NCBI GenBank assembly: GCA_913775175.1
Contig: CAJYKU010000022.1
Span: 1-39,366 of the forward strand
Reading direction: 5' to 3'
Origin: an uncultured Pantoea sp.
GTDB lineage: Bacteria > Pseudomonadota > Gammaproteobacteria > Enterobacterales > Enterobacteriaceae
DNA length: 39,366 nt
The position numbers were made by a program, and so were the translations under genes. Under the pieces are notes generated by a model. The model saw nothing but the letters and a program-made list of their open reading frames with translations. It ran no database searches and was not told the DNA's origin. Each line of letters opens with the position of its first letter. Position 1 is the first letter of the stretch. Below, piece by piece: positions 13,692 through 33,495 of this stretch.

Positions 13692-14531
13692 CTACTCTTC
13701 TGCTGGTTGATCCCAGTATTGATATTTATAGGCTGAGGTAAGATGGCGCTCGATAGTGCCTTTAGCAAACACCTCTTTTTCATACAGAAAGCTCAGGGTA
13801 CAGTTGCCGGTTTCATCCCAGAGCTGACAATTATCAACAGAGTGCAGTGTGCTGACTGGCGTGGTAGCAACGCCAGTCAGACCCAGCTCCCGCCACTGTT
13901 CATCAAAGCGCCACGTCTCTTTGCTGCGGCCACTGGTCGTTGCAATTACCTGATCCCGTGCATTCCAGCGCCAGCTGTTCTCGCTATTGTTCTGCGTATC
14001 ACTGTCACGCGTCACGCTTTTTTGTAGTCTGAAACGCGAATCGTAATGGTAAACAATTGCAGCACTACCACTGCTGCCCATAGTGACATACTTGTCCGAG
14101 GCGCTAACGATGTTACCGCGCGGTCCGGTTCGCCAGCTTAACGTACCCTGTCGCTGATCGACTAACTGCTCCTGATCCGCCTTAAGTGTCACCACCCGCC
14201 AGGCGTACTCGGCCACCCAGCCGCGCTGTACCCGGGCAATATGCTGCTCCATACTCAGCAGAATATTGCCCTCGCGCTTATCGTAACTAATATCTGCTGC
14301 CAGTAAGTCACCGCAGCGGTCAAACTGTCCCAGGACCCGCTTTTGCGAATCGACATCTTTGCCAAACTCGCCGGCAATAACCTGCTTTACCGCGCCTTTT
14401 GCTGCACCACCCAACAGAATCCAGACATTACTGCTGCTGATATTCCGGCTTAGTGGCGGGCAAACAGGTTTGGCTGCCAGCGACAGGCAGGGAGTAAGCA
14501 ACAGTAGCGTAACCGGCAGGAACCATTTCAT
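13692..14531 (-). CDS. Secreted protein of unknown function
   Basis: I do not recognise this gene. From ATG 14531 it encodes 279 residues beginning with a clear signal peptide (MKWFLPVTLLLLTPCLSLAA); an upstream start is possible but would put extra residues before the signal. The mature part is rich in Trp, Tyr and Arg. Towards its end are short stretches resembling YD/Rhs-type repeats (YHYDSRFRLQKS, WRWNARDQVIATTSG, WRFDEQWRELGL), which suggest a beta-strand-rich periplasmic or outer-envelope protein. Its codon use looks like that of its neighbours. It is alone between cmoB and cutC, where E. coli carries tor genes. Confidence 0.75.
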   Translation of the reverse strand: MKWFLPVTLLLLTPCLSLAAKPVCPPLSRNISSSNVWILLGGAAKGAVKQVIAGEFGKDVDSQKRVLGQFDRCGDLLAADISYDKREGNILLSMEQHIARVQRGWVAEYAWRVVTLKADQEQLVDQRQGTLSWRTGPRGNIVSASDKYVTMGSSGSAAIVYHYDSRFRLQKSVTRDSDTQNNSENSWRWNARDQVIATTSGRSKETWRFDEQWRELGLTGVATTPVSTLHSVDNCQLWDETGNCTLSFLYEKEVFAKGTIERHLTSAYKYQYWDQPAEE

Positions 14532-14611
14532 TGTGTTTTCCACACAGGGGCTTAGATTAAGCAAAGCATCTTTTTATCTGCTGCGCTATGTCCCGACGTA
14601 ATACACAGGCA

Positions 14612-20016: not shown

Positions 20017-22103
20017 TATTTGCTACCTATAGTCGCGGTCATACGGATCTGGCGATTATCACTGAGTTCCATGTTAGAGAGCACGACCAGCTGCGGCAGA
20101 TTACGACGCAGGAAGCGAGCCAGCAGCGCGCGCAACGGATGATTGACCAGCAGGACCGGCGGAGCACCACTCATCTCCTGCTGCTGGAGCGCAGCCTGAG
20201 CCTGCACCAGCAGCCGGTCGGCCAGGCCCGGCTCCAGGCCACCGCCGCCCTGCAGCGCCTGCAGCAGCAGACGCTCCAGCGACGCATCAAGACCAATAAC
20301 CTGAACTTCACCGCTGCCCGGGAACCACTGCTGAGTAATCGCCCGGCCCAGCGCAACACGCACCACGCTGGTGAGTTCCTGCGGATCGTTTTGTACTGGC
20401 GCATGCTCAGCCAGCGTTTCAATAATGGTGCGCATATCTCTGATGGATACCCGCTCGGTTAGCAAATTCTGCAACACCTTATGCAGCGTCGTTAGCGTAA
20501 TCACACCGGGTACCAGATCTTCGGTGAGTTTAGGCATCTCCTGCGTCACGCGGTCCAGCAGCTGCTGCGCTTCCTGACGACCAAAGAGTTCGCTGGCATA
20601 CTGACCAATCAGATGATTCAGGTGCGTTGCCACCACCGTACTGGCTTCTACCACGGTGTAGCCCTGAATCTGCGCCTGCTCTTTCAGCGCGCTATCGATC
20701 CAGATCGCCGCCAGACCAAAGGCGGGATCCACTGTGGGCTCGCCAGGCAGAGTGCCTGCCGCTGTACCGGGGTTAATCGCCATCCAGCGACCGGGATAAG
20801 CGTCACCGCTACCTATCTCGACCCCTTTCATCAGAATACGATAACGGGCTGGCGGCAGATCCATATTGTCACGAATGTGTACCACCGGCGGCAGAAAGCC
20901 CACCTCCTGCGCCACTTTTTTACGGATACTGCGGATGCGACCCAGCAGCTCACCATTTTGCGTATGGTCAACCATAGGGATCAGACGATAACCCACCTCC
21001 ATGCCCAGAGAATCTTCCAGCTGCACGTCAGTCCATGAGGCTTCGGCTGTGGCAGGTGTCTCCTGCGTTTTTATCAGGCTTGCAGATTCAGGCTGTTTCT
21101 TAGGCGTAAGCTGCTGACCACGCTGCCACCAGGCCAGCCCCAGCAGTACTGCTGTAAAAAGCAGAAAAACAAAGTTGGGCATCCCTGGCACCAGACCAAG
21201 CAAACCAATCACACCGGCGCTCAGCATCAGCACGCGCGGATTATTGAATAGCTGCCCCACCATCTGTTCACCGACATCCTGATCGGTTGCCACGCGGGTC
21301 ACAATCACACCCGCTGCGGTGGAGATCACCAGCGCCGGGATCTGTGCCACCAGGCCATCACCGATGGTCAGTAGCGTATAGGTTTCACCTGCCTGCCCCA
21401 CGGCCATACCGTGCTGTACCACGCCCACCAGCAGCCCGCCGATCACATTGATGACCATAATCAAAATACCGGCGATGGCGTCACCGCGCACAAATTTACT
21501 GGCACCATCCATTGAGCCGTAGAAGTCCGCCTCTTGTGTGACTTCAGAACGACGGCGTTTCGCTTCATCTTCGCCAATCAGCCCGGCATTGAGATCGGCA
21601 TCAATTGCCATCTGCTTGCCTGGCATTCCATCCAGCACAAAACGCGCGCCCACTTCGGCGATACGACCAGCACCTTTGGTGATCACCATAAAGTTGATGA
21701 TAACGAGAATAATAAATACCACGATGCCGATAGCGAAGTTGCCACCAACCAGAAAATGGCCAAAGGCTTCCACCACGCGGCCTGCGGCATCGGCTCCGGT
21801 GTGCCCCTCCAGCAAAATAATCCGGGTTGACGCGACGTTGAGCGCCAGGCGCAACAGCGTCGAGAAGAGCAGAATGGTTGGAAACGCAGCAAAATCCAGC
21901 GTGCGCTGGGTAAACATCGCTACCAGCAGCACCATAATTGATAGTGCAATATTAAACGTGAAGAGCAGGTCGAGGATAAAAGCTGGTAGTGGCAGCACCA
22001 TCATCGACAGAATCATCATAATCAGCACCGGACCTGCCAGTACCTGCCATTGCGTCTCTTTAATATTGCCCGGTAAACGCAGCTTTTCGGCCAGATTAGC
22101 CAT
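20016..22103 (-). CDS. flhA: Flagellar export gate protein FlhA
   Basis: Large inner-membrane component of the flagellar type III export gate; it uses the proton motive force and docks substrates through its cytoplasmic domain. From ATG 22103 it has 695 residues: about eight membrane helices in the first 320, the FHIPEP-family signature around RIAEVGARFVLDGMPGKQMAIDADL, and a four-part cytoplasmic domain to the end. I take MANLAEKL as the start because it matches other FlhA proteins and has AGGAGA about 11 bases upstream. The frame also has a TTG further up, inside flhB. It overlaps the end of flhB by eight bases. Confidence 0.96.
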   Translation of the reverse strand: MANLAEKLRLPGNIKETQWQVLAGPVLIMMILSMMVLPLPAFILDLLFTFNIALSIMVLLVAMFTQRTLDFAAFPTILLFSTLLRLALNVASTRIILLEGHTGADAAGRVVEAFGHFLVGGNFAIGIVVFIILVIINFMVITKGAGRIAEVGARFVLDGMPGKQMAIDADLNAGLIGEDEAKRRRSEVTQEADFYGSMDGASKFVRGDAIAGILIMVINVIGGLLVGVVQHGMAVGQAGETYTLLTIGDGLVAQIPALVISTAAGVIVTRVATDQDVGEQMVGQLFNNPRVLMLSAGVIGLLGLVPGMPNFVFLLFTAVLLGLAWWQRGQQLTPKKQPESASLIKTQETPATAEASWTDVQLEDSLGMEVGYRLIPMVDHTQNGELLGRIRSIRKKVAQEVGFLPPVVHIRDNMDLPPARYRILMKGVEIGSGDAYPGRWMAINPGTAAGTLPGEPTVDPAFGLAAIWIDSALKEQAQIQGYTVVEASTVVATHLNHLIGQYASELFGRQEAQQLLDRVTQEMPKLTEDLVPGVITLTTLHKVLQNLLTERVSIRDMRTIIETLAEHAPVQNDPQELTSVVRVALGRAITQQWFPGSGEVQVIGLDASLERLLLQALQGGGGLEPGLADRLLVQAQAALQQQEMSGAPPVLLVNHPLRALLARFLRRNLPQLVVLSNMELSDNRQIRMTATIGSK

Positions 22104-23250
22104 CGTCTCTGTTCTCTCCTGCAAAGTCCATCTCTGCCGGAACCGGCAGATGCTTAGGTTTGGTTGGGATCAGGCCACCTTCACGTTTCCAGCGACGTAG
22201 CTGCCAGACCCAGGCCAGTACTTCCGCCACGGCGGCATATAGCGCACCAGGGATCAACTGACCAATTTCACTGTGGCGATAGAGCGCACGCGCCAGTGGC
22301 GGCGCCTCCAGAATCGGTACGCGATGCTCGCCGGCAATTTCCCGAATACGCAATGCAATATCCCCGGCACCTTTGGCGATAACTTTGGGCGCACTCATCT
22401 TCCCTTCCTGATATTGCAATGCGACAGAATAGTGGGTTGGGTTGGTTACAATCACATCCGCTTTGGGAACATCTGACATCATGCGCCGTCGCGCTGCCGC
22501 GCGCATTGCCTGCCGGATCCGTCCTTTAACATGCGGATCACCCTCATTCTGTTTATGTTCATCGCGGATCTCCTGACGTGTCATGCGCAGCTTTTTGAAG
22601 TGGCTGTAGAGCTGCCAGAAGACATCAAACCCCACCATCGGAAACAGGCCGAGCATTATCAGCCCGCAACTGGCCGCAACCATACTCAGCCCATGCTGCA
22701 ATGCATTAACCGGAGACTCGCTGATGAGCCGCAGCATCTCCTGCCAGTGACTCCAGAGATACCAGCCCGCCACTATGCCAACCAGTACAGCTTTGAGTAT
22801 CGCCTTAACCAGCTCCGCCACTGTCTGCCCGGAAAACATGCGTTTAATACCTGGCAGCGGATTGAGCTTTTTAAAATCGAGCTTGATCGACTTTCCGCTG
22901 ATATTGATGCCACCCAGAATCATGGGCGCTACCATTGCAATAATCACCAGCCCACCCATAAGCGGCAGCAGTGCGGCTACCGCCTGCATAACCAGGCTGC
23001 CAATATGCGCGATAATAATTTTGTCATCGCTGACCATGCCGTGATCAAAGCGAAATCCGCTTGCCACCATGCGAGCCAGTGTGGTTGCCATATGTGCACC
23101 ACCCAGCCACAAAATCAGCAGACCAGTCAGTAACATCAGTACCGATGTCAGTTCTCGCGAACGCGGGATTTGCCCCTCCTCCCGCGCTTTTTCAAGTCGG
23201 TGGGGGGTGGGCGATTCTGTTTTATCCTCACTACTGCTCTCTTCAGACAC
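22096..23250 (-). CDS. flhB: Flagellar export switch protein FlhB
   Basis: Inner-membrane export component whose self-cleavage switches the flagellar apparatus from rod/hook to filament substrates. I choose GTG at 23250 (VSEESSSEDKTESPTPHRLEKAREEGQ) over the longer open frame: CGAGG lies seven bases upstream and the length of 384 matches E. coli. Four membrane helices span about 30-215. The autocleavage motif NPTH begins at N270. It is the first gene of flhB-flhA-flhE. In E. coli the chemotaxis operon lies upstream of flhB; here that position is taken by an intergenic region and the T6SS-like module. Confidence 0.95.
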   Translation of the reverse strand: MSEESSSEDKTESPTPHRLEKAREEGQIPRSRELTSVLMLLTGLLILWLGGAHMATTLARMVASGFRFDHGMVSDDKIIIAHIGSLVMQAVAALLPLMGGLVIIAMVAPMILGGINISGKSIKLDFKKLNPLPGIKRMFSGQTVAELVKAILKAVLVGIVAGWYLWSHWQEMLRLISESPVNALQHGLSMVAASCGLIMLGLFPMVGFDVFWQLYSHFKKLRMTRQEIRDEHKQNEGDPHVKGRIRQAMRAAARRRMMSDVPKADVIVTNPTHYSVALQYQEGKMSAPKVIAKGAGDIALRIREIAGEHRVPILEAPPLARALYRHSEIGQLIPGALYAAVAEVLAWVWQLRRWKREGGLIPTKPKHLPVPAEMDFAGENRDDG

Positions 23251-23844
23251 AGCAAACCTCGGCAGGCAGGAATTCTGAGCATAGAATGCCAAAATCAGCT
23301 GCGACTAAAGCGCGGATTAGACGGAGAAACAAGAGGTTTATTACGGCATAAGCTTCTTAAGGCGAGATATTACGCCAGATTTTTCGGTCAATATGTACGA
23401 CAGGTAACGCTCTTCTGGCATATCAATAGCTGTTTCACACCAGCCTGCCGGAAAATCTTAAAAACCTGTCTCAATGCTGTACACAGTTGCCGTACAGAAA
23501 TAACTTAATAATTAGCAATATTAACTATTTTCGTTAAGAAATGACTGCCGCGAGAGGCCTTTACGCCACTGGTGACACAAAGAGTCAGATAAAAAATAAA
23601 TGTTACTTAACTGTTATCCGCATCCCTCCCCAGTCAGGTGGAACAGCTGCTGATGTTATGTTCGCTAACACGCGGTTTCCTGTATTGCAATAGTTTGAAT
23701 TCCCAAAAGTCTTAGGTAGACTGACGCAGTGGCTTTCCTGAAGAAATCTGGCTTCTTTTTCGTGGTTTTTTCGCGACATACTGTAGTTATACAGTTCAGG
23801 TATACCCGCTTTTACTCTGCAGTTAATCTGATGGAATTATAGGG
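23251..23844. other. 594-base intergenic region between divergent flhB and the T6SS-like operon
   Basis: AT-richer than both flanks, with no convincing coding frame. It must hold the leftward flhB promoter and the rightward promoter of the module. Two inverted repeats share the half-site CTGTA/TACAG: CTGTAC-N9-GTACAG at 23477-23497 and ACTGTA-GTTA-TACAGT at 23780-23795. I could not find a convincing FlhDC box. Confidence 0.55.
23780..23795. promoter_or_regulatory. Inverted repeat, possible operator of the T6SS-like operon
   Basis: Perfect ACTGTA-GTTA-TACAGT, 50 bases before the first start codon. It overlaps a possible -10 hexamer TATACA (23788-23793), so a bound protein could block transcription. 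Arm spacing (CTGT-N6-ACAG) is two bases too short for LexA. Confidence 0.45.
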
Positions 23845-24339
23845 ATGACAGTGAAAACAGGTCTTGTGCTTACGCTACTGGCGACATTAATGCTGGCCGG
23901 ATGTAAAACAGCGCCACCGGCACTCACCGATGATACGCTGGTGACCAGCACAGTTAATGGCGTTACGCTGACGCATCGTCATGCGGTAGCTGTCCCGACA
24001 GAATTCACTGCCATCAATACCTCATACCGTGCGCTTTATGCGGCTTCAGTTATGACCACGCCAGATTACGGTGGCAGCGTTGTGCGCTATCTCGATAATG
24101 CACAACGTTTTGAAGTTCTGGGCCGGGTTGAGCATAACTGGCTGGCAATTGCTGACGCTCCAGAGGGAGAGCTGATCGGTTATGTTCCGTATAAAGCGGG
24201 TGTGGAGAGCAGCCGCTATAATGCCACACTGCGCAGCGATCGACCGCGTCCGCGCCGCAACAAGCAGGTTTGTGTAGCAACCGGTGGTGACAGCAAGGCG
24301 TGCCGGAGTAATGATACGGCAACCTGGATCCTGGATTGA
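23845..24339 (+). CDS. Lipoprotein with an SH3-like domain, first gene of the T6SS-like operon
   Basis: Encodes 164 residues with a lipoprotein signal peptide ending in the lipobox LAGC, so the mature protein starts at C20 and should be anchored in a membrane facing the periplasm. Residues about 75-120 (VVRYLDNAQRFEVLGRVEHNWLAIADAPEGELIGYVPY) resemble a bacterial SH3 domain, which in other proteins binds peptidoglycan. The tail is basic (RPRPRRNKQ) and has two further cysteines. It stands where a TssJ lipoprotein would be expected to serve a TssL-TssM complex. I see no similarity to TssJ, so it may be a substitute anchor. The gap to tssL is 85 bases. Confidence 0.8.
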   Translation: MTVKTGLVLTLLATLMLAGCKTAPPALTDDTLVTSTVNGVTLTHRHAVAVPTEFTAINTSYRALYAASVMTTPDYGGSVVRYLDNAQRFEVLGRVEHNWLAIADAPEGELIGYVPYKAGVESSRYNATLRSDRPRPRRNKQVCVATGGDSKACRSNDTATWILD

Positions 24340-24424
24340 ATCAGCAATCAGGCTGGTGCCAGCCGCAGCGGCCTGGAGTGCGGTGGATGCATAGCGCCGT
24401 TATTGCCGGAAAAAACGAGAGTTT

Positions 24425-25639
24425 ATGATGCAGGACACCCTTGCCCGCAACGGAACAGATGCGGGCAACGATAACCTTTTGCTGAATGCCGCCGCGCCGG
24501 TGCTGAATGCTGTTGTACACATCCGGCAGGCTGCCACACATGACGATCCCGCCGGGCTGCGCCAGTTACTGATTAGTGAGATACAGGCGTTTGAGCGGCG
24601 CTGTAAGCAGGCTGGACTGCCGTTTGAGATGATTATCGGTGCCCGCTACTGTCTCTGTAGCGTACTGGATGAAGCCGCTGCGCAGACGCCCTGGGGAACT
24701 CGTGGTGTCTGGTCCGGCAACGGTATGCTGGTCAGTTTTCATAATGAGAGCTGGGGTGGTGAAAAATTCTTTCAACTGTTGTCACGCGTATCGCAAAGTC
24801 CGCACCAGCATCTCTGGTTGCTGGAAGTCATTCACTACTGCCTGTTGCTGGGATATGAGGGGCGCTATCGTGGCAGCGAGGCGGGCCGGGCACAGTGCGA
24901 GGCGATCCGTCAGCGTCTGGCAACGTTAATTCGTGAGACGCGTGCCTCTGACAACAGTAATAATGCGCCTCTGGTAGCTGTTCATCCGCTGGTCAGCACG
25001 CTGACGCGCCCGCTGGTGCCCTTCTGGGCCTGCGCTATGCTGGCAGCCCTTATCGCCTGTCTGGTCTATAGCACACTTAACTGGCGGCTTGGCAGCGCAG
25101 CAGAGCCGCTGCTGCGTGCTATCTATCAAACGCCTCTGCCACAGATTATGCAGGGCCGCCGTCCCGCGTCACCCCAGGCGTTACTCGATTTACAGCAGCG
25201 CCTGAATGATGTGATCGCAGCCGGGCAGCTGGAAGTCAGCGACGGTGCGTTTGGCAGTAAAGTCATTATTCCGGCAGATAAACTCTTTACGCTCAGGGGC
25301 ACCGTGGTGACGCCAGTGGGGCGTGCACTGCTGGCGCATATCGCCAGTGCGATAAAAAACGTCAAAGGCACCATTCTGATTTCTGTCTACACCGACAACG
25401 GTGCGGTAGATGGGCGTTTCGCTTCAAGCTATGAGTTTTCACTGGCGCGTGCGCATGCCGTGATGCAACTGTTGGGCGCACAGCTGGCGCAGGGACAGAG
25501 TATAAAAGCTGAAGGACGAGGCGACAGTACTCCTCTGCTGCCTAACGACAGCAACGAAAACCAGGCCCGCAATCGCCGGGTTGAAATCACGCTGTTTGCC
25601 ACACCGGAAACAGCAGCTAACGCCGGGAACTCTCGCTGA
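24425..25639 (+). CDS. tssL: T6SS membrane-complex protein TssL (DotU) with OmpA-like domain
   Basis: Inner-membrane component that pairs with TssM in type VI secretion. The cytoplasmic DotU domain (about 40-180) carries the hallmark ARYCLCSVLDEAAAQTPWG, FHNESWGGEKFFQLL and LGYEGRYRG. A single membrane helix lies at about 198-217. The periplasmic part ends in an OmpA-type peptidoglycan-binding domain (about 290-395, with NQARNRRVEI), as in extended TssL proteins. At 404 residues it seems complete. The start is ATG 24425 or 24428. The stop overlaps the tssM start by one base (TGATG). Confidence 0.93.
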   Translation: MMQDTLARNGTDAGNDNLLLNAAAPVLNAVVHIRQAATHDDPAGLRQLLISEIQAFERRCKQAGLPFEMIIGARYCLCSVLDEAAAQTPWGTRGVWSGNGMLVSFHNESWGGEKFFQLLSRVSQSPHQHLWLLEVIHYCLLLGYEGRYRGSEAGRAQCEAIRQRLATLIRETRASDNSNNAPLVAVHPLVSTLTRPLVPFWACAMLAALIACLVYSTLNWRLGSAAEPLLRAIYQTPLPQIMQGRRPASPQALLDLQQRLNDVIAAGQLEVSDGAFGSKVIIPADKLFTLRGTVVTPVGRALLAHIASAIKNVKGTILISVYTDNGAVDGRFASSYEFSLARAHAVMQLLGAQLAQGQSIKAEGRGDSTPLLPNDSNENQARNRRVEITLFATPETAANAGNSR

Positions 25640-27753
25640 TGCGCACATCATACCAACATCTGCTTACCCATCGGCTGCTCTGGAGTCTGATTGGTGTCAC
25701 CGCACTCAGCTGCCTGGTCTGGATGCTTGGACCTCTGTGGGTATGGGGTGAAAGCCGCCCCTTTGAACCTCTGTTAGCGCGTCAGCTTGCGACAGGCGCG
25801 CTCTACTTTTGCTGGCTGCTGTTTCAGTTTATTCCGGCTCTCTGGCGCGGCTGGTTCAACAGCAAGATGCTGCAGCGTCTGCAAACCCTGAGTCATGACG
25901 ATCACTCCGACCGTCAGGCTACGGATATATTGCTGACGCAGCGTTTTAGTGAGGCGGTGATGCGCCTGAAACGCACGCAGTTTGGCCGTGATCATCAGAA
26001 AAGCTGGCTGACGCGGTTTCAGAGCCACTATCTCTATCAGCTGCCCTGGTATCTTATTATCGGCGCACCCGGAGCAGGTAAAACCACCGCCCTGCTCAAT
26101 GCCGGACTCAGCTTTCCGCTAAGTGATACTCACGGTAACAGTGCAATACGGGGTATTGGTGGCACCCGGCACTGTGACTGGTGGTTTACCGATCGGGCCG
26201 TGTTGATTGATACTGCCGGACGTTATGCGCTACAGGAGAGCCAGCAGGCGCGCGACAGCGCAGAGTGGCAGAGCTTTATCCGGTTACTGAAACGCTATCG
26301 TACGCGGCAACCGATCAACGGCGTGATCCTGACGGTAAGTGTTGCCGACCTGCTGACTGATAGCGCTGAAGCACGCCATGCCCAGGCCACTGCGCTGCGC
26401 AATCGCATGGCCGAGTTGCATCAGCAGAGCGGTATCCAGTTTCCGGTCTATATCATGGTGACTAAAACCGATCTGCTGAAAGGATTTCTCAGTTTTCACG
26501 CCGCTCTTAGCAAACCGCAGCGCGACGCTATCTGGGGCTTTACCTTTCCCCGTGAGCCGGGTAAATCACATCGGGAAACCTGGCAGTCCGGTTTCACCAC
26601 CCGGTTTCAGCGCCTTGAGCAGCAGCTCAGGCTGCAACTGCCAGAGCGCATGGCCGCCGAGCGCGATTTGACCCAGCGCGCCGATAGCTTTCTGTTTCCG
26701 CAGGAATTCAGCTCGCTGCGTCCACTACTCCACGCGTATCTCGATACTATTTTTTCCCGCCATGGGGAGAGCGTTGCCTGGTCTGCTCGTGGACTTTTCT
26801 TTACCAGCGGCACGCAGGAAGGTTTGCCTTTTGATCGGATTATGGGCGCACTTAATCGCAAATTGCAGCTGCCGCAGAGTGGCGAAAATACGCTGGCAAC
26901 GTGGGATAGCGTCACTCGCAGTAATCCAATCCCGGGTAATAAAGGCCAGAGCTATTTTATTCGCGATTTACTGAGTGAACTGATTTTTCGTGAAAGCGGT
27001 CTGGCGGGCAGTAATCGCCGCTGGGAGTCCCGCAACCGTCTGCTGCACTGGACAGGCTATGGTGCGCTGACCGGTGCGCTGGTGCTGTTATGCGGCCTGT
27101 GGCTGACCAGCTATGTACAGAACCAGCGCTACCTCAATCAGGTGGCGGCGCGTATTACGCCGCTGATGCAGCAGAACCAGCAGGTGGTTTCTCAGCCCGT
27201 AGAGAATATTTTTGATCTGCTACCCTTTTTAAATAATCTGGTAAAGCTGCCGCTGTCAGACCACTTTTCGCTCGACGATCCTCCGCTTACCATGCGGGCC
27301 GGGCTGTATCGCGGTATGCAGGTCAGCGATGCCGCGTGGGTGTTGTATCAGAATGCGCTTAAGTCGCTGCTACTGCCGCGGGTAGCACAGCAGATAACAC
27401 ATCTGCTGCGTGATGATCCCGGAACCGATAGCCACTACAGCCGGAACGCCCTGCGTGCCTATCAAATGCTCTATCAGCCACGCAACTATGATGGTGAGTT
27501 TCTGCGCAGCTGGCTGATTGAGAATCTGCAGCGCTCACTGCCTGCTGATGTCAGTGTACGGGATTTGCAGCAGCTGGACTGGCATCTCAGTCAGCTACTC
27601 GATCAGCAGATACAGTCATCCCCTTATGCGCGTGATAATGCGCTGATGATGCGTAAGCTGGCGCAGAATCTTAACAATGCAGGCGAACACAAGGCGACGC
27701 TGGCGATGAGTCCGGCGCGCGCCGCTGAGCATATAACCCGTTATAGCGAATAA
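25639..27753 (+). CDS. tssM: Short T6SS membrane-complex protein TssM (IcmF)
   Basis: Inner-membrane ATP/GTP-binding protein that pairs with TssL. Two N-terminal helices (about 13-33 and 50-70) precede a cytoplasmic NTPase domain with Walker A GAPGAGKTT (142-150), DTAG (191-194) and a TKTD motif. A third helix lies at about 472-490. The protein then ends after about 210 periplasmic residues, at 704 in total, whereas typical TssM has about 1,100-1,200. The missing part includes the C-terminal region that contacts TssJ in studied systems. No downstream frame continues the protein: tagF starts 14 bases later. So this is a clean shortening, not a recent frameshift. The NTPase motifs are intact, which suggests continued use. 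Confidence 0.92.
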   Translation: MRTSYQHLLTHRLLWSLIGVTALSCLVWMLGPLWVWGESRPFEPLLARQLATGALYFCWLLFQFIPALWRGWFNSKMLQRLQTLSHDDHSDRQATDILLTQRFSEAVMRLKRTQFGRDHQKSWLTRFQSHYLYQLPWYLIIGAPGAGKTTALLNAGLSFPLSDTHGNSAIRGIGGTRHCDWWFTDRAVLIDTAGRYALQESQQARDSAEWQSFIRLLKRYRTRQPINGVILTVSVADLLTDSAEARHAQATALRNRMAELHQQSGIQFPVYIMVTKTDLLKGFLSFHAALSKPQRDAIWGFTFPREPGKSHRETWQSGFTTRFQRLEQQLRLQLPERMAAERDLTQRADSFLFPQEFSSLRPLLHAYLDTIFSRHGESVAWSARGLFFTSGTQEGLPFDRIMGALNRKLQLPQSGENTLATWDSVTRSNPIPGNKGQSYFIRDLLSELIFRESGLAGSNRRWESRNRLLHWTGYGALTGALVLLCGLWLTSYVQNQRYLNQVAARITPLMQQNQQVVSQPVENIFDLLPFLNNLVKLPLSDHFSLDDPPLTMRAGLYRGMQVSDAAWVLYQNALKSLLLPRVAQQITHLLRDDPGTDSHYSRNALRAYQMLYQPRNYDGEFLRSWLIENLQRSLPADVSVRDLQQLDWHLSQLLDQQIQSSPYARDNALMMRKLAQNLNNAGEHKATLAMSPARAAEHITRYSE

Positions 27754-27766
27754 TGGCGAGGTAACG

Positions 27767-28465
27767 ATGGCGAAACAGCATGCGCCCGGCTGGTGTGGCA
27801 AACTTCCTGCTACCGGTGACTTTCTGCGCCAGCGTTTAAGCGAAGCGACTGTTGCCCCGTGGAACAACTGGTTTCAGCAGGGTCTGATCCACTGGCATCA
27901 GCAGGCGAATGCCACTACTCCGCTGTTTTTACGCGCCCCGGTATGGAATTTTGTCCTGCCGCTTTCGCCACTGCGTCAGCAGGTGCAGATCGGCTGTCTG
28001 TTGCCCTCCTGCGATCGGGTAGGTCGCGCCTGGCCTTTACTGGCGCTGCGTTCATTTACGCCAGCTGAATGGCATCCGGCACAGCTGACTATCTCTGGTG
28101 ACTGGTTTCACGAACTGGGCGCCCTGCTCTGGTCAGCGGTACGTGACAGTTACAGGCCGGATCGCCTTGAGGCCGGATTGCAGCAGCTCCCTCCTCTGCT
28201 GGTGCCGGATAATCAGCCCAGCGATATTATGGATGTGATTGGCTATGCGGATCTGCCCTGCACCCTGAGCTGGCGTGAAGTGGCTGAACGCTTTACCCCT
28301 CAGCAACCTGTCAGCTACTGGTGGAGTAATCGCAGTGATGGATTTGCTCACGCCACGCATAAGCATAGTGGTCCACTGACCGCAGAGCTTTTTTCACTAT
28401 TATTTAATCCGGCGGCCGGTGCGCAGCCAGGACTTAATGGCCTCTATCCGCCGATGTTTGATTAA
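27767..28465 (+). CDS. tagF: T6SS accessory protein TagF
   Basis: TagF (ImpM/DUF2094) proteins act in the threonine-phosphorylation control of T6SS; in Pseudomonas TagF represses the system together with Fha. The 232 residues start with the family signature GWCGKLPATGDFLRQRL and include GRAWPLLALRSF and a late SYWWSNRSDGF. Length is typical of stand-alone TagF. The start ATG 27767 has GAGG upstream. It follows tssM by 14 bases and precedes the FHA gene by 32 bases. That pairing fits the known TagF-Fha partnership. Confidence 0.9.
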   Translation: MAKQHAPGWCGKLPATGDFLRQRLSEATVAPWNNWFQQGLIHWHQQANATTPLFLRAPVWNFVLPLSPLRQQVQIGCLLPSCDRVGRAWPLLALRSFTPAEWHPAQLTISGDWFHELGALLWSAVRDSYRPDRLEAGLQQLPPLLVPDNQPSDIMDVIGYADLPCTLSWREVAERFTPQQPVSYWWSNRSDGFAHATHKHSGPLTAELFSLLFNPAAGAQPGLNGLYPPMFD

Positions 28466-28497
28466 ACCAGTGGTTTGCCATGTTAACGGGATGATTC

Positions 28498-29622
28498 ATG
28501 CAATTTACTCTTGTGCAGTGCGATACGGATGCGCCCGCTAAAAGCGTCACGTTTACACCGCCTGGCGGCACCATTGGCCGCAGCCAGGATAATGACCTGG
28601 TTCTGCCTGACGAAACGCGCGCTATCTCGCGCCTGCAGGCGCTGGTGCACCTCTCAGCCACAGGTGAGTGTCGCCTGACCGCTCAGGGCAGCGTTACCCC
28701 GATTATACTTAACGGCGTGGCGTTGCAGCGCGGTGAGCAGGTTATGCTGCAGCATGGCGACCAGCTGCAGATTGGCGCCTGGGCACTCACAGCTATCGAC
28801 CCGGCGCACCAGCCTGAGTCAGACGATCCGCTCGCTTTTTTTACCGATAATGTCACCGACCCGCTGGCGATACAGCAGGAAGCCATATTAAGCGTCGATC
28901 CCCCCGCTGTGATAGCGCCACCTGTATCAGAGCGCCGTCCCGATCCGCGCCTCGCCATCGACCCGCAGCGTGATGCTGCAGCCCGGCCCCGTCTGACTTC
29001 TGAGAGTAATGAGCAGCAGCTAATTGCGGCGTTGCTGGAAGGAATGGGCTTAAACAACGGACAACAGACAACTATCAGTGAAGAGCAGATGCGCATCACT
29101 GGTCGTATGCTGAGTCTGTTTTCGCAGGGCACAGTTGCGCTGCTCTCATCGCGCTCGATTCTTAAGCGGGGCGTGAAGGCGGATATGACCATGATCCTCA
29201 ATGAAGCCAACAATCCCTTTAAGATCCTGCCATCCGGCAAAACCGTGCTGATGCAGATGTATCAGAGCCAGATGCCGGGCTTTATGCCGCCGGAAGCCGC
29301 CGTGCGTGACGCGCTGGTCGATCTGCAGGCGCATCAACTGGGCATGATTGCCGGTATCCGGGCGATTATTGCTGCCATGCTGCAATCGTTTAATCCGGAA
29401 CGTCTGGAAGAACAGGCACGCAGTGAAGGCACGCTGCCTAAGGTGGCGTTAAACAGCGGACGCAAGGCTGCACTGTGGAATGCATTCACGCGCCACTATC
29501 AGCGTACGGCGGGCGAGATCGAGGATGATTTCCACACGCTTTTTGGCGAGGCCTTTCTCAATGCCTATGACATGGAAGTTAATCAGTATAAAGATTCGCA
29601 AACCCGGATGGATGAGACATGA
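28498..29622 (+). CDS. tagH: FHA-domain T6SS regulator (TagH/Fha)
   Basis: Phosphothreonine-reading scaffold of the T6SS post-translational control pathway. An N-terminal FHA domain (about 5-100) has the phosphate-binding G27-R28-S29 and S44-R45, but glutamine (Q47) replaces the usual histidine of the SRxH motif. A linker rich in Pro and Asp follows. The C-terminal T6SS-specific domain (about 165-370) contains MTMILNEANNPFKILPSGKTVLMQMY and GEAFLNAYDMEVNQY, close to those of complete systems. The stop overlaps the pppA start (ATGA). The kinase and phosphatase genes close by are its expected partners. Confidence 0.9.
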   Translation: MQFTLVQCDTDAPAKSVTFTPPGGTIGRSQDNDLVLPDETRAISRLQALVHLSATGECRLTAQGSVTPIILNGVALQRGEQVMLQHGDQLQIGAWALTAIDPAHQPESDDPLAFFTDNVTDPLAIQQEAILSVDPPAVIAPPVSERRPDPRLAIDPQRDAAARPRLTSESNEQQLIAALLEGMGLNNGQQTTISEEQMRITGRMLSLFSQGTVALLSSRSILKRGVKADMTMILNEANNPFKILPSGKTVLMQMYQSQMPGFMPPEAAVRDALVDLQAHQLGMIAGIRAIIAAMLQSFNPERLEEQARSEGTLPKVALNSGRKAALWNAFTRHYQRTAGEIEDDFHTLFGEAFLNAYDMEVNQYKDSQTRMDET

Positions 29623-30395
29623 AGATGATGTTTGCCAGCCGCAGTCAGCAGGGCAGGCGCGATGAGAATCAGGATCGTACTGCCGCAGAAGTCGATGAGC
29701 AGCGCGGCTTTTTTCTGGTATGTGATGGCGTAGCGGGATTACCTGGCGGTGACTATGCGGCTGAACTGGTGCGGGACACGCTGCTCAGCGCGCTGCAAAA
29801 CAGCAGCAGCTTTACCCCTGAATCCACCCGCGCAGCTATTGCAAAATGTCAGCAAACCCTGGCAGACGCACAGGGGAAGAATCCGAAATTTTCACGTATG
29901 AGCACTACCCTGGCGGCACTGTTTATCGATCGTAAAAATCAGCTGGCATGGTGGGCGCACGCTGGTGACAGCCGGGTTTATCATTTCCGTCACGGCAGGC
30001 TGAGTGAGGTCACCCGGGATCATAGTCTGGCTCAGCAGCTGCAGGATGCAGGCTATGAAAATTCCGGCATTAACAGTAATTTACTTTATAATGCGCTCGG
30101 CACAGATCCGGTTCGTCCGGTAACGTTCAGCACGGCACTTGAGCTCAGTGATGGCGATGCATTTCTGGTATGCACTGATGGCTTCTGGCTCAATCTGACT
30201 ACCCGGGAAATGGAGCAGGCGCTGCGCATGGTCAACGCCTGCGAAGAGTGGCTGACGCTGATGGAGCAGGCAGTAAACCAGAGCGATAAGCGGGATAACC
30301 TTAGCGCGCTGGCTGTCTGGGTTGGTGAACCGCAGGATGCCACGCTGCTTTACTCTCCGGCTGATGCGGCGCGCTTTGTGCCTTCTCGTAACTGA
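29619..30395 (+). CDS. pppA: PP2C-type serine/threonine phosphatase PppA
   Basis: Metal-dependent phosphatase that reverses PpkA phosphorylation in T6SS control. The 258 residues have the PP2C metal-binding and catalytic motifs: DENQD (15-19), CDGVAGLPGGD (from C35), GDSRVY (116-121) and TDGFW (186-190). It is soluble, with no signal peptide, so it acts in the cytoplasm. It is translationally coupled to the FHA gene by a four-base overlap. All key acidic residues are present, so activity is expected. Confidence 0.93.
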   Translation: MKMMFASRSQQGRRDENQDRTAAEVDEQRGFFLVCDGVAGLPGGDYAAELVRDTLLSALQNSSSFTPESTRAAIAKCQQTLADAQGKNPKFSRMSTTLAALFIDRKNQLAWWAHAGDSRVYHFRHGRLSEVTRDHSLAQQLQDAGYENSGINSNLLYNALGTDPVRPVTFSTALELSDGDAFLVCTDGFWLNLTTREMEQALRMVNACEEWLTLMEQAVNQSDKRDNLSALAVWVGEPQDATLLYSPADAARFVPSRN

Positions 30396-30410
30396 TTTGC
30401 AAGGATCCTT

Positions 30411-31361
30411 ATGAAAGTGTGGTTGTCGGGTATTGCCGCCCTGCTGCTGGCTCAGAATGCTCAGGCAGAAGATTATCGCGTTATCTATTCGCCCAGCCTG
30501 GCGCTGGAGGTCTATATCGATAATGTCGCCAGCAAAGCACCCGATGACTGGTGTAAAGAGAGACTGCCGCTGCGTATCGTTTCAGGTAAAAGCCAGGAGA
30601 CACACATCCTCGACACTTTTTTACCCCGTGCAGGCACGCTACTGGCGAATCAGTGTGGCAGCCTGGATGAACTGCCGTGGCAGTTCATCAGCAAAACAGG
30701 CAGCGTACTGGCCAACGGCACAGCAGCAAAGCTGCAAAACTGGCGTCCGATTATTATCAATGATGCAACTGCCAGTGCCAGCACTACAACAGCGGCACCG
30801 CTGGATCTCTCACATCCGGCTGACAGCACGCCACTGCAACATTTTGCCCTGCCTGGCGGCTGTCATTTTCGTACCTGGTGGGATGAACAGGGTGCGTCAC
30901 TGTTTATTCCTGATGTCAGTGGATCGCACTGCTCAACCGAGGGCTGGCTGGAGGGAGCCAGCGAGATTGCGCTGCTGAATGAGAATAAACCGATTTCGCT
31001 GCCGGTGAGCTTCTATCAGGGCTATCCCGTTGCCGGACTCAATCCGGGTAAACAACCGCTGGAAATCGTGGCGGTAAATAAGCAACGCATGATTGTTACC
31101 CGGCCTGATGCTGCCGGGAGCTGGCTGGTGTTGCCGTTTGATGCAAAGCAACATCTCTGGCGCTTTGATGGTGCCCTGTTGATAAAACTGGATAAAAAAA
31201 CCGGCAGTGACAACAGCATTGTGAAAGCAAACGTTGATCGTTATCGCGCCATCTGGTCGTCGCAGTTTATGCCACAGCAAAAAGTGACAGTGTTACTTAT
31301 CGACACTCTGCATGCAGATCTTGTCGATCCGGCAATTGGTGCCTGGCGTAACATTAATTAA
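30411..31361 (+). CDS. Exported protein of unknown function in the T6SS-like operon
   Basis: I do not recognise this family. It encodes 316 residues with a signal peptide cut after AQA (about residue 19) and no membrane anchor. The mature part has four cysteines (C48, C82, C151, C174), which could form two disulfides in the periplasm. There is a Ser/Thr-rich low-complexity stretch around ASASTTTAAP. The start ATG 30411 has AAGGAT upstream and follows pppA by 15 bases. It lies between the phosphatase and kinase genes. A sensor partner for the kinase's periplasmic tail is a reasonable guess, by analogy with the TagQRST signalling proteins of Pseudomonas, but I see no sequence match to those. 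Confidence 0.8.
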   Translation: MKVWLSGIAALLLAQNAQAEDYRVIYSPSLALEVYIDNVASKAPDDWCKERLPLRIVSGKSQETHILDTFLPRAGTLLANQCGSLDELPWQFISKTGSVLANGTAAKLQNWRPIIINDATASASTTTAAPLDLSHPADSTPLQHFALPGGCHFRTWWDEQGASLFIPDVSGSHCSTEGWLEGASEIALLNENKPISLPVSFYQGYPVAGLNPGKQPLEIVAVNKQRMIVTRPDAAGSWLVLPFDAKQHLWRFDGALLIKLDKKTGSDNSIVKANVDRYRAIWSSQFMPQQKVTVLLIDTLHADLVDPAIGAWRNIN

Positions 31362-31427
31362 TCAGCATTCGCTGCCTGCTACGCACCGCGGAACCAGGCA
31401 CTACAGGATCTGTTCAGAGAGCTCACT

Positions 31428-32828
31428 ATGTCGGCAAACGAAAAACTTACCCCTAACGCCCTGCCCGCAGGCTACCGATTTAACGAGTTCGAAATTCAGG
31501 ACGTTGTCGGTGGCGGCGGTTTTGGTATCGTCTATCGCGCCTGGGATCACCAGCTGGAACGAACCATCGCTATTAAAGAGTATATGCCGCTCTCGCTGGC
31601 CGCTCGTGCAGCAGATATGTCGCTGGAGTTGCGCGGTGAACGCTTTCATAAACTGTTTCATGCAGGCCGCAACAGTTTTATTCAGGAGGCGCGCCTGCTG
31701 GCACGCTTTAATCATCCCGGTCTGCTGCACGTGCTGCGTTTCTGGGAAGAGAATGGCACCGCCTATATGGGCACGCTGTTCTATAGCGGTATGACGTTAA
31801 AAGCGTGGCAGGCCAGCCAGCCTGAGCCGCTTAACGAAGCCTGGATTCGCCGGCTGCTGCCACCCTTGTTTGATGCAATTAATACTATTCATGCCGCAGG
31901 CTATCTGCATCGTGATATCTCGCTGGACAATATTCAGATTCAGGATAACCAGCTTCCCGTACTGCTTGATTTTGGCTCTGCACGCAAAGAGATTGGTAAC
32001 CTCTCTGATGAAACTGAAATCATGCTTAAGCCCGGGTTTGCGCCGATTGAGCAGTACAGTGAAGAGGGTGAAGGTGAACAGGGTCCCTGGACCGATATCT
32101 ATGCGCTGGGCGCGGTGCTGCACACACTGATTACCGGCTATGCGCCGCCAGTCAGCGTGGTTCGCTGTATTGAAGATAATTATCAGCCGCTGGCCAGTCG
32201 CAGACCAGAAGGCTATTCACTGCCGCTGTTGCACGCCATTGATGCTGCCCTGGCCATGAAACCGCAGGATCGTCCGCAAACCATCGATGCACTGGCGCAA
32301 CTTATTAATCTGCCCGACAGCGATGCTGAAACGTTAAGCACACCGTTGCCGGTTAACACAGACGTTCTGCCAGTGACAGAGCCAGTTACAGCGGCTGAAC
32401 CTCCGCTGGCGGCATCTCTGCGCACCGCAACGCTGACTGAACCGGTATCGCCTGACGCCGCCAGACGGCGGCGCACCACACCTGTTGTCGTGACGCTGGC
32501 TGCTGTTGCACTGGTTGCTATCGGAGTGGGAGTATGGCGAACCCTGCACCACACCTCTCCACCCCCAGTGGCCACCGCTCCGGTAACCGGCCCTGCTACT
32601 GCGGGCAGCGTACCTGCCACGGCTACACTCTATCTGCAGCTACAGCCGGACGAACGTGTCGCGCTGAATGGAGAGGTTCAGGATATTAAAGCAGCCAGCA
32701 GTGGTTTCGCTTCACTTAATCTTGCGGCTGGCAGCTATCAGATTGAAGTCCGCCGGGGCAATCAGGTGCGCAGTCAGTCCCTGACAATCAGCCAGCCCGG
32801 AACCTGGCTGATTAATCCCGGTAACTAA
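31428..32828 (+). CDS. ppkA: Membrane serine/threonine kinase PpkA with PEGA-like periplasmic tail
   Basis: Hanks-type kinase, the presumed activator of this module through phosphorylation of the FHA protein. Residues 20-300 form the kinase domain: glycine loop GGGGFGIVY (28-36), ATP lysine K50, catalytic HRDISLDN (161-168; HRD is followed by IS rather than LK) and DFG (181-183). A proline- and threonine-rich linker leads to a membrane helix (about 350-368). The last 70 residues resemble a PEGA domain (LYLQLQPDERVALNGE to ITSQP-like end), probably periplasmic. The catalytic residues are intact. The gene's last 17 bases overlap the oncoming chaC. Confidence 0.92.
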   Translation: MSANEKLTPNALPAGYRFNEFEIQDVVGGGGFGIVYRAWDHQLERTIAIKEYMPLSLAARAADMSLELRGERFHKLFHAGRNSFIQEARLLARFNHPGLLHVLRFWEENGTAYMGTLFYSGMTLKAWQASQPEPLNEAWIRRLLPPLFDAINTIHAAGYLHRDISLDNIQIQDNQLPVLLDFGSARKEIGNLSDETEIMLKPGFAPIEQYSEEGEGEQGPWTDIYALGAVLHTLITGYAPPVSVVRCIEDNYQPLASRRPEGYSLPLLHAIDAALAMKPQDRPQTIDALAQLINLPDSDAETLSTPLPVNTDVLPVTEPVTAAEPPLAASLRTATLTEPVSPDAARRRRTTPVVVTLAAVALVAIGVGVWRTLHHTSPPPVATAPVTGPATAGSVPATATLYLQLQPDERVALNGEVQDIKAASSGFASLNLAAGSYQIEVRRGNQVRSQSLTISQPGTWLINPGN

Positions 32829-33495
32829 TGTGCGGGCACGCCTGCTGCAATGCCCTGACTTCAGCAGCCAGCCGCGTCAGTGCGGCCTCCTGCATACCGC
32901 GCTTACTCAGCTCCTGCTCCAGTGAGAAGAGATACTGTGCGTTGCTGCCGAGTGGTCCGCTCGCCTGCGCAATCAGCGGGGCAATCGTTGTGCGGCATGA
33001 ATCAGCCTCATACAGCGGATGACGGGGATCCATAATAAACACCAGCGCGGTTACTCTGCGTCCGTCATCCAGTGTCAGTTCACACCAGGTAGGCAGATAG
33101 CAGCCGGTGATCATTTCACGCTTCCAGAGCAGCTCCAGCTCTTCATGCAGACGGGTCTCTGGCAGGCGAAATGCCAGACCGCTGGTGCTGCCTCCCTCTT
33201 TTAGCGCCAGCATACGGCCCGGTGTATCAGCGGTACCGCGTCCGGCGGTCAGCCGCAGACAGAATGCACGATGCCAGCCTTCAAGACGACCTGCAGCCAC
33301 TTCATCTGCCTCAAATACCGGGTTCCACATCAGTGAGCCGTAGCCAAAAATCCAGACCGGGCTTTGATCGGGCCGACAGGCCAGCGTAGCAGAGAGTGAT
33401 GCGGCTCGCTGGTCGCAGTCCCACAGCAATGCTTCATCAATATCACCAAATGATGTTTTGCAATCGGCTTTTAATAAAAATTCCCGGGTTAACAA
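32812..33495 (-). CDS. chaC: Glutathione-specific gamma-glutamylcyclotransferase ChaC
   Basis: Degrades glutathione to 5-oxoproline and Cys-Gly in the cytoplasm. The 227 residues hold the substrate-binding WIFGYGSLMWNP and the GRMLALKEGG and KREMITGCYLPTW stretches typical of ChaC. The start is TTG at 33495. A perfect AGGAGG (33502-33507) lies six bases upstream, and the N terminus MLTREFLLKADCKTSFG matches E. coli, so the rare start is secure. The C terminus (QQACPHISYRD) differs from E. coli and lies partly within the 3' end of the kinase gene on the other strand. Confidence 0.93.
   Translation of the reverse strand: MLTREFLLKADCKTSFGDIDEALLWDCDQRAASLSATLACRPDQSPVWIFGYGSLMWNPVFEADEVAAGRLEGWHRAFCLRLTAGRGTADTPGRMLALKEGGSTSGLAFRLPETRLHEELELLWKREMITGCYLPTWCELTLDDGRRVTALVFIMDPRHPLYEADSCRTTIAPLIAQASGPLGSNAQYLFSLEQELSKRGMQEAALTRLAAEVRALQQACPHISYRD

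Follow-up and report, generated by a model that had tools for sequence, protein, structure and literature searches.

The closest described relatives of the locus studied here are small type VI secretion system (T6SS) loci of Pantoea and Erwinia. De Maayer 2011 (PMC3235180) describes the T6SS-2 of these genera as eight syntenous genes, 'partial and potentially non-functional,' with ∼52% identity to T6SS-1. In P. ananatis, the locus designated PA T6SS-3 by Shyntum 2014 (PMC3942780) was reported in all strains; from its high conservation 'a strong selective pressure' was inferred, with the comment that 'its specific role is unknown.' According to two later papers, which cite Shyntum 2015, deletion of the locus in P. 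ananatis LMG 2665 had no effect on onion virulence or competition. The question of whether the locus might complement T6SS-1 has also been raised (PMC9837560), and P. stewartii DC283 has been reported to have the locus and no T6SS-1. We analyzed a locus of this kind at positions 23845..32828 of a 39,366-nucleotide stretch of DNA, referred to as the window (contig CAJYKU010000022.1, assembly GCA_913775175.1), from an uncultured, plant-associated Pantoea sp. whose genome is 74.65% complete. It corresponds to the T6SS-2 description, with eight syntenous genes that include those for IcmF, DotU, FHA, kinase, and phosphatase proteins and with the other core genes absent; matched in this way by description, it is the published T6SS-2 of Pantoea/Erwinia and the PA T6SS-3 of P. 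ananatis. An earlier reading of the letters by themselves (the sequence-only reading) had suspected that such a small locus was already in the literature, which was correct, and a role had in fact been sought for it, through the deletion that was reported without a virulence or competition defect. The locus itself and the idea that selection maintains it are already known. The assignments of RtkS and a TagV-like lipoprotein, the conserved truncation of TssM, the map of deleted genes, and the quantification of selection and co-occurrence are new here, in that they were not found in the literature searched. We consider it probable (∼0.58) that a T6SS-1-type cluster gave rise to the locus, which has no contractile machine, no TssJ, and no C-terminal TssM half and has been kept as a non-secretory envelope phospho-switch.

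Several parts of such a switch have been described in complete systems. In Agrobacterium tumefaciens, TssL is phosphorylated at Thr14 in a PpkA-dependent manner, Fha binds phospho-TssL, and the conformation of TssM changes (PMC3953482). TagF represses through Fha (PMC5995506), and in Serratia it is reported to block assembly of the membrane complex. Serratia TagV is a lipoprotein with an SH3b domain that has been proposed to bind peptidoglycan and that supports TssJ-independent firing. RtkS homologues have already been recorded in Pantoea T6SSs (PMC6082577).

The eight open reading frames (ORFs) of the window locus are all open and lie head to tail on the plus strand, at the coordinates given by the sequence-only reading, and their families were matched in Pfam or NCBIfam with the exception of RtkS. 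The first gene (23845..24339) encodes a lipoprotein of 164 amino acids with a lipobox-like LAGC motif and a match to NF041850 (TagV; 200.6 bits; E, 1.3e-59). The score is below the 300-bit equivalog cut-off, and the protein is therefore named TagV-like. TssL (24425..25639; 404 amino acids) combines a DotU domain (PF09850; E, 2.2e-63) with a C-terminal OmpA domain of the peptidoglycan-binding type (PF00691; E, 3e-7); it passes the cut-offs of both families and of TIGR03349 and falls below that of the long-form family TIGR03350 (97.6 versus 139.8 bits). It is followed by a short form of TssM (25639..27753; 704 amino acids). TagF (27767..28465; 232 amino acids) begins 13 bases after tssM, matches PF09867 (E, 1e-35), and scores above the cut-off of TIGR03373. 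Fha, or TagH (28498..29622; 374 amino acids), has an FHA domain (PF00498), a shortened linker, and a T6SS_FHA_C domain (PF20232; E, 2.2e-49). PppA (29619..30395; 258 amino acids) is a PP2C-type phosphatase according to its motifs and PF13672 (E, 1.1e-14), RtkS (30411..31361; 316 amino acids) is an exported partner of PpkA, and PpkA itself (31428..32828; 466 amino acids) is a Ser/Thr kinase (PF00069; E, 3.7e-21) that matches the PpkA kinase domain of PDB 5hnv (E, 5.2e-154). The only core proteins among TssA to TssM are TssL and the half-length TssM, and the locus is not a complete T6SS. The overlapping start and stop codons that had been noticed are present at two junctions, tssL/tssM (1 base) and fha/pppA (4 bases), fewer than had been implied, as the other five are gaps of 13 to 85 bases. 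The kinase, phosphatase, and nucleoside triphosphatase (NTPase) motifs are intact as had been described, and so are those of the FHA domain. In 60 to 63 aligned copies, some of them frameshifted (pppA of genome G158, tssL of G207 and G156, and fha of G168), the TssM Walker A motif, the kinase P-loop, Lys, HRD, and DFG motifs, the phosphatase aspartates, and the FHA arginine and serine are near-invariant.

Two features had escaped the sequence-only reading. The exported protein that it left as an unknown has no Pfam or NCBIfam match; by sequence and structure it is RtkS, the periplasmic partner of PpkA, and PpkA residues 398 to 465 match the kinase chain that was crystallized with RtkS (PDB 9k1u_D; E, 2.4e-17). 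The RtkS-like partner of a Serratia-type threonine-phosphorylation switch is accordingly present, so that all five members of the Serratia RtkS-PpkA-PppA-Fha-TagF switch occur here together with TssL, TssM, and the TagV-like lipoprotein. The second feature is the truncation of TssM. The protein belongs to TIGR03348 (634 bits; cut-off, 388), with intact NTPase motifs, and the match covers positions 1 to 630 of the 1,168 in the profile; T6SS-1 TssM has 1,206 to 1,212 amino acids and spans the envelope at full length. The short form keeps positions 1 to 144 of the 308 in the IcmF-related domain PF06761 and has no C-terminal half, and its length is 701 to 705 amino acids in 37 of 39 loci. The C-terminal periplasmic half of TssM is the part that binds TssJ.

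Plasmid-borne T6SS clusters of E. albertii and P. piersonii (L141, 12001-12984; L142, 12001-12915) also carry RtkS homologues, located between pppA and tagJ, that are labeled 'hypothetical protein.' These labels, with the lack of a Pfam or NCBIfam model for RtkS, are an annotation gap.

Comparison with T6SS-1 shows what the locus has kept. The order of the T6SS-1 cluster in genome G130 is tagV-tssJ-tssK-tssL-tssM-tagF-tssA-tssB-(tssC)-hcp-fha-pppA-rtkS-tagJ(ImpE)-tssE-tssF-tssG-clpV-ppkA, with some further ORFs in between; tssC was outside the scan of G130 and is placed according to other clusters. Each of the eight module genes has a counterpart there in the same order and on the same strand, with 38 to 62% identity (53% for the TagV-like lipoprotein). 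The module is thus a T6SS-1 cluster minus tssJ-tssK, the C-terminal half of TssM, tssA-tssB-tssC-hcp, and tagJ-tssE-tssF-tssG-clpV. The kept set consists of a sensor, a kinase, a phosphatase, a phospho-reader, a repressor, and an inner-membrane NTPase complex, and the lost set consists of the baseplate, the sheath, the tube, and the outer-membrane link. Fha is also shorter in the module, 374 amino acids versus 542 to 669 in four T6SS-1 clusters, and its C-terminal piece is 54 to 74% identical to theirs.

In a tree made by a quick method from 14 short and 25 long TssM sequences, the short forms fall on one side of a single branch (Shimodaira-Hasegawa-like approximate likelihood ratio test, 100). 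They lie outside the four Erwiniaceae T6SS-1 TssMs in this tree, which is unrooted, the branch of its sole outgroup being ∼10 changes per site long. The origin proposed by De Maayer, in which part of the Pantoea/Erwinia T6SS-1 was duplicated, was not retained, as the short TssMs are not among the Erwiniaceae T6SS-1 TssMs; with the root unplaced, the tree establishes neither an old duplication nor a separate acquisition.

The architecture is widely conserved. The locus was found in 58 of 61 Pantoea genomes, the three without it having genomes of 1.4, 2.4, and 2.9 Mb, and gene order is conserved across 8 genera. Each of the 64 loci fetched (57 from the genus and 7 from other genera) had its detected module genes colinear on one strand, and 59 yielded all eight. 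A scan for RtkS in a second collection (31 loci, apparently largely from the same genomes) gave the same picture. By length and coverage criteria combined, 48 of the 58 loci in the genus, including that of the window, have eight open genes, and seven are broken (G156, G158, G168, G172, G180, G192, and G207). The locus runs off a contig end in G157 and G201, with every whole gene visible open, and G200 has seven open module genes, tagV not having been found.

Purifying selection on the module is strong. Pairwise ratios of nonsynonymous to synonymous substitution (dN/dS) were calculated with NG86 for pairs with synonymous divergence (dS) between 0.1 and 1 (293 to 522 pairs per gene, which are not independent). 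The medians for the individual genes, for which the sequence-only reading had called, were 0.053 for tagV, 0.061 for tssL, 0.070 for tssM, 0.112 for tagF, 0.087 for fha, 0.100 for pppA, 0.111 for rtkS, and 0.106 for ppkA, with the frameshifted copies named above included. Without the seven broken-gene genomes, they were 0.050, 0.054, 0.072, 0.112, 0.087, 0.097, 0.107, and 0.094, respectively, and the largest value for any single pair was 0.342. TssM supplies an internal comparison: the median was 0.046 for residues 531 to 670, the retained IcmF-related part, and 0.369 for the variable C-terminal tail, residues 671 to 704 (27649..27750, plus strand), or 0.044 and 0.376 with the broken-copy genomes removed. 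Relaxed selection with frequent frameshifts, which the sequence-only reading had held would speak against function, was not seen overall; six of the seven broken loci are in genomes without an intact TssK.

The strong constraint, the conserved architecture, and the lack of a reported competition phenotype make a non-secretory envelope switch the best reading, and the module probably does another job in the cell envelope. The sequence-only reading had left two possibilities, the remains of a cluster kept open or a repurposed envelope complex, and the second is favored. The proposal starts from the parts list, the colinearity with T6SS-1, the single clade of short TssMs, the constraint, and the presence of the module in genomes without T6SS-1 and sometimes without T6SS core genes; every biochemical step in it is modeled on the Serratia marcescens and Agrobacterium systems. 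RtkS would read a periplasmic cue and then stabilize and activate PpkA, which would phosphorylate Fha (or TssL). Phospho-Fha would gather at the inner membrane and overcome TagF. TssL-TssM may be held to peptidoglycan via the OmpA domain of TssL, perhaps with the TagV-like lipoprotein alongside, and the TssM NTPase would drive a change of state in TssL-TssM until PppA resets the switch. Because TssK, TssJ, and the C-terminal half of TssM are missing, neither baseplate docking nor crossing of the outer membrane is expected, and the output is therefore expected to be the membrane cluster itself. A more specific version, possible and offered tentatively, is that a contractile injection system became an envelope sensor without a machine: an NTPase complex of TssL and short TssM, anchored to peptidoglycan, clustered by phospho-Fha, and controlled by RtkS-PpkA, would have served the cell envelope without secretion throughout the radiation of these genera.

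Several observations weigh against a repurposed switch. In Erwinia, four genes are reported to be left in E. amylovora and E. pyrifoliae, with icmF frameshifted in the latter, and fha to be missing in E. tasmaniensis (PMC3235180). Under the conditions tested in Serratia, TagV bound neither TssL nor TssM. Broken modules were concentrated in genomes with no TssK or a frameshifted one (6 of 11, versus 1 of 47 with an intact TssK; p, 7e-5; counts uncorrected for phylogeny or assembly quality). The difference was 4 of 9 versus 1 of 47 (p, 0.0016) when G168 and G180 were dropped post hoc for broken flanking genes, and 3 of 8 versus 1 of 47 (p, 0.008) with G207 removed too. This pattern suggests a tie with a T6SS-bearing life, and T6SS-less genomes could still have the module because they lost their T6SS only recently; this may apply especially to G155, as TssK and TssB are found in its close relative G164. 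Pairs with the three T6SS-less genomes used had higher dN/dS values (0.09 to 0.14; 17 pairs). At similar dS, the value was 0.143 for pairs of a genome with T6SS-1 and one with none (10 pairs) versus 0.068 for pairs of T6SS-1 and other-T6SS genomes (32 pairs), and dN/dS by triplet counts was 0.086 in G152 versus 0.029 in its T6SS-bearing sister G186. The higher values of pairs with T6SS-less genomes slightly lower our confidence in the repurposed switch. Relaxed selection in T6SS-less genomes was itself considered and not adopted: triplet counts for G152 and G169 pointed to it, pairwise values did not distinguish the classes within that clade, and the chaC control was short.

Module frameshifts and a split TssK occur in the same genome in G168, G180, and G207 (L123, L135, and L090). 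Assembly error is likely to be partly behind these frameshifts, and flanking genes are broken too in G168 and G180; setting these two genomes apart on that basis is a judgement. One flanking gene was flagged in 10 further genomes, G207 included; most were single N-terminal shortfalls, and these were taken as differences in start.

Because broken modules and missing TssK go together, a trans-acting link to T6SS stays in consideration. In this model, a complete T6SS in the same cell would be joined or backed up by the TssL, short TssM, Fha, and TagF of the module, which, serving as a decoy membrane complex or as an additional kinase input, would set the threshold of that system. The main target would be T6SS-1, whose proteins are mostly 50 to 60% identical to those of the module. 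The similarity of the Fha C-terminal pieces in the four clusters fits such an action, as do the report that the Serratia switch acts on membrane-complex assembly and the suggestion that the locus might complement T6SS-1 (PMC9837560). The module was described by the sequence-only reading as stand-alone and without a secretion machine, which is true of the locus but not of the genome. Another T6SS, of a different subtype, lies on contig C39 (L004 and L005), with TssK, TssB, a TssL-like gene, and a TssM of 1,153 amino acids; TssK and TssB were found only there and not on the contig of the window. In tblastn searches of this cluster with the module proteins, only distant matches to TssM and TssL were obtained (26 to 27% identity), and the module Fha is the sole T6SS_FHA_C protein of the genome. 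Most module-bearing genomes have a T6SS elsewhere, including each of seven sampled outside the genus (by TssK and TssB), while a minority do not. Within the genus, TssK was matched in 50 and TssB in 51 of the 61 genomes, and among the 58 with the locus, 8 have no TssK match and 3 have a split TssK. No TssK, TssF, or full-length TssM was found in G152, G155, G169, G200, and G201. All eight module genes are open in the first three of these, as are the seven of G200 and all those seen before the contig end in G201; G152 has one TssB, and G158, likewise without TssK, has TssF. Dependence on T6SS-1 fits poorly with these data. In all 11 T6SS-1-less genomes tested, the module Fha is the sole T6SS_FHA_C protein (G020, G031, and G068, for example, have no T6SS-1-type TssM and only the module Fha). 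Seven of the 11 have another T6SS and an intact module, which is as strongly constrained as with T6SS-1 (dN/dS, 0.042 in 22 pairs versus 0.054 in 81 pairs). The reports on P. stewartii DC283 and on the P. ananatis LMG 2665 deletion also argue against a trans-acting modulator, which we regard as unlikely.

Slow decay of a functionless remnant, in which the regulatory half of the T6SS is still open by chance, as the 2011 authors suggested, would account for the lack of a reported knockout phenotype, for the gene loss and frameshift in Erwinia, and for the 7 broken loci among 58 in the genus. It is quite improbable given gene medians of 0.05 to 0.11 next to a relaxed TssM tail (0.37), near-invariant active sites, and an order conserved in 8 genera, and strong selection was inferred by the 2014 authors as well; the low medians in particular disfavor a neutral remnant. 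A split locus, in which a complete T6SS at another site would obtain the parts it lacks from the module, agrees with the T6SS nature of the genes and with the core genes found elsewhere in most module-bearing genomes; it is very improbable, because the other T6SSs seen carry their own full-length TssM (with a TssL-like gene in the C39 cluster), each of the four T6SS-1 clusters examined has its own copy of all eight genes, and the module TssM has no C-terminal half.

The locus is flanked by flhB (22096-23292, minus strand) before tagV and by chaC (32812-33495, minus strand) after ppkA. The 3' end of ppkA overlaps the convergent 3' end of chaC by 17 bases (32812-32828), and chaC is present at 37 of 39 related loci. 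The statement of the sequence-only reading that the window encodes no tube, sheath, baseplate, ClpV, Hcp, or VgrG holds for the 28 further plausible ORFs scanned, none of which matched a T6SS family at an E value of ≤1e-5; shorter and antisense ORFs were outside the scan. A 290-amino-acid ORF with a TTG start (13695-14564, minus strand) was the only one of these 28 without a Pfam match at an E value of 1e-5. Pantoea-type loci were also found in records named Enterobacter ludwigii EnVs2 (L053; 73 to 82% identity) and Enterobacter cancerogenus M004 (L068; 73 to 87%), with chaC at 89 to 90%; the organism names of these records are probably wrong.

In the literature consulted, T6SS membrane complexes and threonine-phosphorylation switches are treated as components of a secretion machine, and here selection keeps the same parts without an adjoining machine. 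If the switch works, the locus would be a natural minimal system for what RtkS senses and for what TssL-TssM does before baseplate docking, and it would show that a secretion system can lose its weapon and still keep its regulatory part. The label 'non-functional' is weakened for a locus present in 58 of 61 genomes of the genus.

Among known systems, the Serratia marcescens switch (PMC6082577; PDB 9k1u) has the same five regulators, and in both, TagF immediately follows TssM and RtkS immediately follows PppA. It governs a complete T6SS, whereas the module, a putative switch, has a half-length TssM and no TssJ, baseplate, sheath, tube, or ClpV genes alongside. TssL-TssM, PpkA, and Fha are common to the module and the Agrobacterium PpkA-TssL-Fha pathway (PMC3953482), and the FHA arginine and serine appear to be conserved, judged by motif position; the Agrobacterium phosphosite finds no support, as the N-terminal threonines of TssL are not conserved among the aligned module copies. 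The T6SS-1 of Pantoea/Erwinia is colinear with the module, but it is a full cluster, and the module has the membrane and regulatory parts only. The published accounts of T6SS-2 and PA T6SS-3 present a partial locus, give no role for it, and, in the portions that describe it, make no mention of RtkS, TagV, or a short TssM. With these loci, the module shares the same eight syntenous genes, a length of ∼9 kb, paralogy to T6SS-1, and wide conservation, and there is no difference in kind.

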